The notes under the pieces: generated by a model | The model's input: the letters and a program-made list of their open reading frames with translations, nothing else | Databases searched by the model: none | What the model was told of the DNA's origin: nothing | Program-made: the position numbers and the translations under genes | Virus record (IMG/VR): IMGVR_UViG_3300008107_000372 | Span: 1-24,616 of that record | DNA length: 24,616 nucleotides | DNA from: a virus | Reading direction: 5' to 3' (one strand) | In this document: positions 1-3,152 of the stretch, one piece after another | Layout of the letters: every line of letters starts with the position of its first letter | Numbering within the stretch: the first letter of the stretch is position 1

Positions 1-454
1 CTTTTCTACCCCCAAACATATCACTTAAACCAAGTGCATCTAATATACTATCTAATATTCCTCCACTTGATTGCTTTTCTATCATACCCTTTAATACATT
101 GTTGATATTTTTCAAATCTTTAGAAATTTCTGGCAAGACAGAAGTATATTTCAATGACATTACCTGTGCTTTATACAGGCGTTCAAAGGTAGTTTTTGTT
201 CCTAGATTGCTTAGTGTTTCATCGAATGAAGCTTTAGTTGGAGAAGTACCAGAACTTTCTTTTTTTTCTTTATCTTTTTTCTTGTCGGGTGTAGCACTAT
301 AACCTTTCAAAGAAGGAAACATAGAAGTAAGAAGACCGTCTTGATCCAATAAATTTCTAGGATCAAAACTTTCCATCATACTTTTTCCAAGAGTAGAAGC
401 AAGACCTCCGCCCTGTTTCTTTTCGCTCTTATAAATGTCTGCTAAAGATGCCAT
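1..454 (-). CDS. N-terminal part of a tail protein (tape-measure/hub candidate), runs off left edge
   Basis: The frame is open on the minus strand from an ATG at 454 to the window edge, giving about 151 residues of a longer protein. It begins MASLADIYKSEKKQGGG. A Lys/Glu/Ser-rich, probably flexible stretch lies near residues 54-70, and Leu/Ile-rich amphipathic segments follow. The ATG overlaps the stop of the preceding short frame (TAATG in the sense direction), which suggests translational coupling. I do not recognise a catalytic domain in the visible part. By position, directly after a gp26-like gene and a frameshift-type small frame, it is a candidate tape-measure or central hub protein (T4 gp29-like role). 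That is inference from gene order only. It could instead be another virion protein carrying the lysozyme that the spike lacks. Confidence 0.6.
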   Translation of the reverse strand, partial: MASLADIYKSEKKQGGGLASTLGKSMMESFDPRNLLDQDGLLTSMFPSLKGYSATPDKKKDKEKKESSGTSPTKASFDETLSNLGTKTTFERLYKAQVMSLKYTSVLPEISKDLKNINNVLKGMIEKQSSGGILDSILDALGLSDMFGGRK

Positions 455-645
455 TACTTACTCTTTTGTTTTTGTTTTAATCTTTCATTTTCTTCTTCAA
501 GGTACTGCAATAGCATATTGATGTATATCTCTCTTTCCCACGGTATCATATTTTCCAATTCAGTCAAACTATACTTGTGATGCTGCATCAATGAAAAGTT
601 TGTCTGGTAGTAATTGCTCAAACTATCGTGAGAAAGAGTTATCCG
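454..645 (-). CDS. gp51-like small frame, probably translated as a -1 frameshift extension of the gp26-like protein
   Basis: This frame is open on the minus strand from 681 to the TAA at 454-456. From the likely shift point it encodes 63 residues, starting RITLSHDSLSNYYQ and including LMQHHKYS, IPWEREIY and a charged EEENERLKQKQ tail. It looks protein-coding: the PWEREIY and EEENER segments resemble a small protein found next to gp26 in aquatic T4-like phages, recalled from memory and possibly called gp51 there. There is no ATG or GTG before an internal ATG at 588; a TTG at 621 lacks a clear ribosome site, and an ATA sits at 642. The frame overlaps the end of the gp26-like gene in the -1 register directly after a TTTTTTC heptamer. 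I therefore read it as the C-terminal part of a 300-residue fusion. Independent initiation at 621 or 588 remains possible. Confidence 0.6.
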   Translation of the reverse strand, partial: RITLSHDSLSNYYQTNFSLMQHHKYSLTELENMIPWEREIYINMLLQYLEEENERLKQKQKSK

Positions 646-1355
646 AAAAAACTTTGTAAACCCTCTACGGTAATATCTTCTTCATACTTACATTTCTTAC
701 ATTGAAACTTTACTTCTGTTTTCAATCGTGGAATAGTAGAGAAAAATTTCTGTATCTTTTCCATGTCTTTCTGCTGGAGATTGTCTAGAAACTCATTCAA
801 TTCTTCAGCAGGTGTGTCTTTTATTGGGTACTTCATATTGCTATCAAAGATGTAGTCGATACACTTTGGTAGAATTTCAAACACGATTTCTTCTTCAGTT
901 TTTCCGTTTATCTCATACAGCATTTCAAATGTAGGATACTTCATCATCATACCCAAATCATCACGGAGCATAATTTGTTTTGTGTGATCTGGAGAGATGG
1001 TTGGTTTTACCTCTGACAAGTTAATGTCAAACTTCTCCAAATTGTTGCAAGCTTTTTCATCGACAATGTTGTTGCATCTATACCTTACTTCAACAACTTC
1101 GTTTACCGATTTGGCGCGAATGTTAAGAAACAAATATTCCAAATCAAATGCTGGCAAAGTATCCACATTCAATTCATCTATCAAGCAATTTTTAATAACT
1201 TGTCTGATAGTGTTGACAGTTTCTTTTTCATCATCAGATTGTGTAGCCATCAGGAGAAGTTTTTGTTCCTTCACCAAGAATGGTCTATACTTTACTGTTT
1301 TTCCAGTTGAAACTAATTTAAGTTCAAAAATAGGTACATCTAACTTTGGTAGCAT
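639..1355 (-). CDS. 26: gp26-like baseplate hub / tail-assembly protein
   Basis: The 238-residue product resembles the T4 gp26 family (T4_baseplate), which acts in hub assembly; T4 gp26 is about 208 residues. The N-terminal half has the pattern LKLVSTGKTVKYRPFLVKEQK followed by LPAFDLEYLFLNIRAKS. Cysteines at 94 and 103 and a CKKC at 219-222 suggest a zinc-binding knuckle, typical of this family. The ATG lies 19 bases after the stop of the upstream gp54-like gene. The 3' end carries the slippery TTTTTTC two codons before the stop, so two products are expected: the 238-residue form and a frameshifted form of about 300 residues. The position before a probable tape-measure gene supports a tail-assembly-chaperone role. 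Family assignment is from recalled sequence pattern. Confidence 0.75.
   Translation of the reverse strand: MLPKLDVPIFELKLVSTGKTVKYRPFLVKEQKLLLMATQSDDEKETVNTIRQVIKNCLIDELNVDTLPAFDLEYLFLNIRAKSVNEVVEVRYRCNNIVDEKACNNLEKFDINLSEVKPTISPDHTKQIMLRDDLGMMMKYPTFEMLYEINGKTEEEIVFEILPKCIDYIFDSNMKYPIKDTPAEELNEFLDNLQQKDMEKIQKFFSTIPRLKTEVKFQCKKCKYEEDITVEGLQSFFG
645..651 (-). promoter_or_regulatory. Putative -1 ribosomal frameshift slippery heptamer TTTTTTC
   Basis: In the sense direction the end of the gp26-like gene reads AGT TTT TTC GGA TAA. The heptamer T TTT TTC therefore lies in the X XXY YYZ phase required for simultaneous -1 slippage, two codons before the stop. After slippage the next codons are CGG ATA ACT, which enter the open frame ending at 454. 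Confidence 0.65.
661..666 (-). promoter_or_regulatory. Shine-Dalgarno-like AGAGGG upstream of the slippery site
   Basis: The sense strand carries AGAGGG inside the gp26-like gene, nine bases before the slippery heptamer. An internal SD-like element about 10 bases upstream is a known stimulator of -1 frameshifting, as in E. coli dnaX. A role here is inference. Downstream, only a weak 4-bp CTCA/TGAG stem with an 8-base loop is visible. Confidence 0.35.
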
Positions 1356-2720: not shown

Positions 2721-3152
2721 TCATATGCCTAACTCTTTTTCAGTCAGTATTTTAAACTGCCACCCGTGTTCTAGACAGAATAGTTCTGCTGCCTTCCACT
2801 TTTCTTGGTTGATGGCATATGTTGCAACCTCGGCTAGCATCTTACGGGTTCTCCGAGACTGTTTTGGTGGCTTCGTTTGCTTTTCCGGTTTCACCTCCAG
2901 CATCATCGTAGCTTCTTTTCCGTCTTTCTTTTTAACGCGGACAACAAAATCTGGAAAATAACGATGCACCCGTTTGTCGATTGGCGAGACATACTTAACA
3001 AACATTTCTTCGGATGCCCACCAAATCACACTTGGATTCTCATCAAAATTCTTCATAACACGCAATTCCCATGAGGAACGGTAGACAATCCTATCGGCAT
3101 TGCCTTTGTATTTGTTTGGGTTTTGGGGTGTGAACCATCCTTTATATGACAT
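2721..3152 (-). CDS. 4: gp4-like head completion protein (TnsA/PD-(D/E)XK nuclease-like)
   Basis: The 143-residue protein matches T4 gp4 (about 150 residues), a head-completion protein with a TnsA-N-type endonuclease fold. The start SYKGWFTPQNPNKYKG and the run RSSWELRVMKNFDENP are typical. The restriction-like catalytic residues are visible: Glu29 (SSWE), Asp68 (YFPDF) and Glu86-x-Lys88 (LEVK). A basic stretch (KQTKPPKQSRRTRK) follows. In T4, capsids lacking gp4 do not join tails; whether the nuclease activity trims DNA at packaging is not settled. It is the first gene of the leftward block, divergent from gp48. The ATG at 3152 is chosen because the family N-terminus aligns there. No strong ribosome site is visible: GGAG lies 18 bases upstream. 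Confidence 0.85.
   Translation of the reverse strand: MSYKGWFTPQNPNKYKGNADRIVYRSSWELRVMKNFDENPSVIWWASEEMFVKYVSPIDKRVHRYFPDFVVRVKKKDGKEATMMLEVKPEKQTKPPKQSRRTRKMLAEVATYAINQEKWKAAELFCLEHGWQFKILTEKELGI

Follow-up and report, generated by a model that had tools for sequence, protein, structure and literature searches.

Whether the gp26-like gene of a marine T4-like phage yields a single protein, or also a longer one through a programmed -1 frameshift at its 3' end, is the question raised by the locus described here. The analysis covered a stretch of 24,616 nt, called the window below, which makes up the whole of the IMG/VR record IMGVR_UViG_3300008107_000372.

Reading frames and gene neighbourhood

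The gp26-like gene lies on the minus strand (639..1355) and encodes a predicted short tail assembly chaperone (TAC-N, G-like) of 238 residues, an assignment based on the ORF, on matches to PF12322 and PHROG 150 and on an AlphaFold model. On that strand its 3' end reads GGT TTA CAA AGT TTT TTC GGA TAA, and two codons ahead of the TAA at which the short form ends in the zero frame (639..641, minus strand) stands the putative slip site T TTT TTC (645..651, minus strand), which occupies positions 651-645 in the phase X_XXY_YYZ. No stop interrupts the -1 frame between 681 and 454, and the earliest ATG in it is found at 588, +53 from the gp26 stop. After a -1 shift the message would read CGG ATA ACT CTT TCT CAC and onward through 63 codons to a TAA at 456-454; the tail so defined (454..645, minus strand) is assigned as a T-like or gp51 C-terminal domain from PHROG 634, PHROG 150 and its conservation. 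The predicted fusion has 300 residues (237+63). The stop of the tail overlaps by one base the ATG at 454 of the next gene (2..454, minus strand), an ORF in the tape-measure position that is cut by the window edge. The first-pass annotation had reported the in-phase heptamer in this gene end, the open -1 frame with its 63-residue tail and first ATG, the TAATG overlap, and products of 238 and about 300 residues, and the sequence and the computed lengths of 238 and 300 agree with it on each of these.

The gene neighbourhood is a T4-like virion module. Profile matches identify, all on the minus strand, a tail tube-like gene (1374-2126), a gene for a gp2-like DNA end protector (2126-2707) and one for a gp4-like head closure protein (2721-3152), and the plus strand of the window carries genes for the baseplate tail tube cap, hub/lysozyme and wedge. 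The gp4-like protein also matches a TnsA-like endonuclease domain (PF08722, 6.9e-23). The relatives of the locus are cyanophages and other Kyanoviridae, and, farther off, Straboviridae and Ackermannviridae. For the edge-cut next gene the profile search gave no family match; its counterpart in phiM7 matches the tape-measure family PHROG 305 (1.8e-5), and no PHROG 305 match was found for the counterparts in P-SSM2, nt-1 and Astolliot.

Conservation of the heptamer and of the tail

A single copy of the heptamer proves little, because TTTTTTC was recreated at -10 in 9.2% of synonymous shuffles of the window's gp26-like gene alone. With the chance level so high in one gene, the case rests on the relatives. 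The closest of these were collected as 80 loci by gp26 protein search, without use of the motif for selection, and 79 of them are complete; TTTTTTC is located exactly 10 nt ahead of the stop in 79/79 complete IMG/VR relatives as well as in the window. Added searches and isolates gave a wider set of 289 distinct gp26-like loci, 274 of which have an in-frame TTTTTTN near the gene end, leading into the same tail. Among these 274, TTTTTTC is found at -10, -16 or -31 in 209 loci and at -7 in 16, and the remainder carry TTTTTTT (28), TTTTTTA (20) or TTTTTTG (1). The gene bodies of the 289 loci comprise 62,119 codon positions, and 52 of these carry an in-frame TTTTTTN; at that rate 0.004 would be expected over the final five positions, in contrast to the presence of the heptamer near the end of 274 of the 289 genes. 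Across the loci the heptamer stands between 7 and 31 nt ahead of the zero-frame stop, and it remains joined to the tail throughout. In five loci (L305, L324, L327, L339 and L280) the heptamer lies 31 nt ahead of the zero-frame stop with the tail link kept, and the short form there is therefore seven to eight codons longer.

The codon usage at the site is also distinctive. In the closest relatives, a set unselected for the motif, the Phe-Phe pair at the slip site is always TTT TTC. Pairs elsewhere in the gene were counted in 57 representatives of less than 80% identity, which had been picked for having the motif and all have TTT TTC at the site; they are TTC TTT (28), TTT TTT (23), TTT TTC (3, that is 3/56) and TTC TTC (2). 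P values for TTT TTC within this motif-selected set were discarded as circular, and the unselected counts were used instead.

The -1 frame shows the marks of a translated sequence from the slip site onward. Residues soon after the slip are conserved in the 274 loci, namely His at position 6 (79%), Leu at 9 (94%), Tyr at 12 (86%), Asn at 16 (94%) and Phe at 17 (100%), and the entropies of the three codon positions of this frame are 0.80, 0.61 and 1.28, the third position being the most variable. The conserved segment precedes the ATG at +53, the first that is common, and with it any usable start, which bears out the earlier remark that conserved-looking sequence begins ahead of the ATG at 588. 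The alignment of homologous loci, which had been proposed as a check, found the heptamer to be near-universal and a start for the small frame to be sporadic, the opposite of a conserved ATG in loci free of the heptamer.

These observations bear directly on the possibility that the small frame constitutes a gene of its own, the annotated gp51, translated from its own start or by re-initiation, with the heptamer a coincidence of a Phe-Phe ending. Database records do annotate the small frame as a CDS of its own, nt-1 and phiM7 have TAATG-like overlaps, the ATG lying 2-3 codons past the slip, and in a P-SSM2-type clade (L086:2530, L113-L192) an ATG stands three codons after the slip in about 97 loci, all the while with the heptamer retained. 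However, the window's own first ATG in this frame, 53 nt past the stop, falls inside the conserved domain; of the 274 loci, 160 are devoid of an ATG within the first 15 post-slip codons, and 102 of GTG and TTG there as well. A Shine-Dalgarno (SD) match was sought at the common +53 ATG and none was found (mean 0.45 kcal/mol, compared with -5.6 where gp26 starts and -0.82 for random sites), and a mere Phe-Phe ending sits poorly with a pair that is fixed as TTT TTC in close relatives and is rare elsewhere. A separate gene is thus very unlikely as the explanation of the window locus. In the P-SSM2-type clade, since its ATG is near the slip site, the fusion may be accompanied by a small protein translated on its own. 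In-frame start codons, which some members of the family have downstream of the slip, would suit an arrangement by both routes, in which a frameshift fusion coexists with an independently started, functional small protein; for the window this is unlikely, as its own clade shows no conserved start or SD.

The fusion could also arise before translation, if RNA polymerase slipped on the T run and the length-altered mRNAs were then translated in the ordinary way. The site is indeed a T run, and 7 or 8 T are present in a few relatives. Nevertheless, the window and 246 of the 274 loci have a run of six T, while efficient bacterial cases are documented at runs of nine A or T (PMC5009743), and transcriptional slippage is for this reason extremely improbable; the X_XXY_YYZ phase and the final C, in turn, fit slippage of tRNAs.

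Relation to T4-type gp26 and gp51 and to known chaperones

The short form matches PF12322 with E=1.9e-62 (profile positions 3-218 of 219) and PHROG 150 with E=6e-71, and the tail matches PHROG 634, 'baseplate hub assembly catalyst', with E=2.6e-29. PHROG 150 has 282 columns, of which the short gp26 reaches to about 235 and T4-type gp51 spans 13-282; the window tail matches columns 235-276, and this region past about 235 is covered among full proteins only by gp51. The T4-type gp26 and gp51 (L081, L094) are paralogues, both with PF12322, encoded by separate, divergently oriented genes, and in gp51 a tail like that of the window comes after a PF12322 domain (residues 1-201, E=4.6e-59). The predicted frameshift product therefore already exists elsewhere as an ordinary gene, and, judged by sequence, T4-type gp51 is its natural in-frame equivalent, matched end to end. 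The T4-like gp26/gp51 chaperones thus belong to the same family as the window proteins (PF12322, PHROG 150), gp51 with the same tail, but T4-type phages use two divergently transcribed genes where the window has one gene and a -1 shift. The same two proteins would be made by two genetic strategies inside one phage group.

The AlphaFold model of the short form (mean pLDDT 87) gave as its three best VIA-align PDB matches 3fgx, 2ob9 and 3klu, with Z of 7.8, 7.8 and 7.3, covering model residues 1-94 at an rmsd of 3.2-4.1 and 4-10% identity. Each of these structures is a tail assembly chaperone of phage origin according to PMC9603447. They correspond to RBSTP2171 (3FGX), HK97 gp13 (2OB9) and YqbN (3KLU), and gp26 differs from them in having a second part (about 90-238) outside the alignment. 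In a Foldseek search of the gp26 model against the PDB no match had E below 0.6 and 2ob9 ranked 13, and a PDB sequence search with gp26 found nothing meaningful. The model therefore supports, but does not prove, a tail assembly chaperone fold for the short form, because the Z values are below 8 and Foldseek ranks the chaperones low.

Frameshifting between the genes G and T is widely conserved in long-tailed phages, with T4 as an exception (PMC5009743, 2016); in lambda gpG/gpGT, a -1 shift late in the gene for the short chaperone adds a C-terminal domain (PMC5009743). The window resembles lambda G/GT in placing a predicted -1 frameshift at the end of the short gene, directly ahead of the presumed tape-measure position, and differs from it in the slip site, T TTT TTC, and in the contractile tail. 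In view of the conserved heptamer, the gp51-like fusion and the chaperone matches, we conclude with high confidence that the locus is a tail assembly chaperone pair of the lambda G/GT type, made through a -1 frameshift. The first-pass annotation had regarded it as the T4-like counterpart of G/GT, and the conservation of the heptamer, the end-to-end match of gp51 and the chaperone-like model uphold that view.

According to PMC10885494 and PMC12846349, which cite the work, the tail assembly chaperones of T4-like phages were identified by Vladimirov, Gautam and Davidson (2022, Virology 566:9-15, doi 10.1016/j.virol.2021.11.003); the former source also states that some T4-like phages have separate short and long chaperone genes (PMC10885494), and the latter that the gene for the short form in T4-like phages is known to carry poly-T -1 signals (PMC12846349). 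Judged from these citing papers, T4-like chaperones and poly-T slip signals appear to have been reported already, and the window locus consequently adds an unannotated further case to a known kind. The evidence for it is very strong and the surprise small, making it a solid but expected case. The Vandenendeviridae, as described for phage Adele in PMC12846349, likewise have contractile tails, and a poly-T -1 signal is conserved where their short form ends; they differ in that the motif is GTTTTT, with no full T TTT TTC, and in being a different phage family. In hundreds of public records of T4-like phages and cyanophages the tail is labelled as a stand-alone 'gp51' or is unannotated, and the true long chaperone is therefore missing from the databases.

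Proposed mechanism and loci free of the heptamer

From the observed signals, conservation and gp51 homology we infer that slippage occurs, at an efficiency that leaves the long form in the minority, and that it serves tail assembly. Most ribosomes would terminate at 639 and release the 238-residue short form. A minority would slip back one base at U UUU UUC, with Phe tRNAs in both the P and A sites on UUU UUC re-pairing to UUU UUU, and would then read 63 more residues in the -1 frame to give the long form of 300 residues. If lambda is a guide, the tape-measure protein, presumably the product of the next gene, would be coated by many copies of the short form and a few of the long one; the tail of the long form, as in lambda gpG/gpGT, would recruit tube subunits, and both forms would depart before the virion is completed.

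The SD-like AGAGGG (661..666, minus strand), 9 nt upstream of the heptamer, is a candidate internal stimulator of this slippage, on the basis of the sequence and its anti-SD match. Its pairing with the anti-SD is strong (-6.3). Across the loci, however, the anti-SD energy at the SD-like site is -5.97 versus -5.69 at other Lys/Glu-Gly codon pairs (P=0.45), and AGAGGG was rejected as independent evidence because such codon pairs elsewhere in the gene pair equally well. The element noted in the first-pass annotation is thus present at the distance given, but it is no stronger than other Lys/Glu-Gly pairs and does not stand out as a selected stimulator; it may aid slippage, with a match indistinguishable from coding constraint. 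A conserved 3' stem-loop was also sought, and RNAalifold found none (mean MFE z -0.8).

In Ackermannviridae and related Vibrio phages (L083:3200-3420, L092, L096-L110, L352-L355 and L359) the gp51-like tail likewise follows gp26 in the -1 frame, but a full heptamer is missing. Thirteen Ackermannviridae loci and Vibrio phage D506 have no heptamer, and their tail follows in the -1 frame after xTT TTC. The same arrangement is seen in three other isolates, LIMEstone1, ChubbyThor and K5lambda5, and BX-1 and K444 have xTT TTT. Those tails of the heptamer-free loci that were tested match PHROG 9633 and, weakly, 634. The Aglimvirinae and Vibrio members have an ATG at +2, and Kuttervirus and Taipeivirus are without an early ATG. 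These loci may use a site like that of T7 gene 10, or a start overlap.

A broader history can be proposed tentatively, at slightly less than an even chance of being right. The frameshifted gp26/gp51 gene would be the usual arrangement in the broad T4-like group and the Kyanoviridae, and perhaps the ancestral one, the separate genes of T4 would be a derived split by duplication, and the Ackermannviridae would keep the -1 fusion with a reduced xTTTTY site. The Kuttervirus (L083) and Taipeivirus (L359) records examined carry no annotation for the tail.
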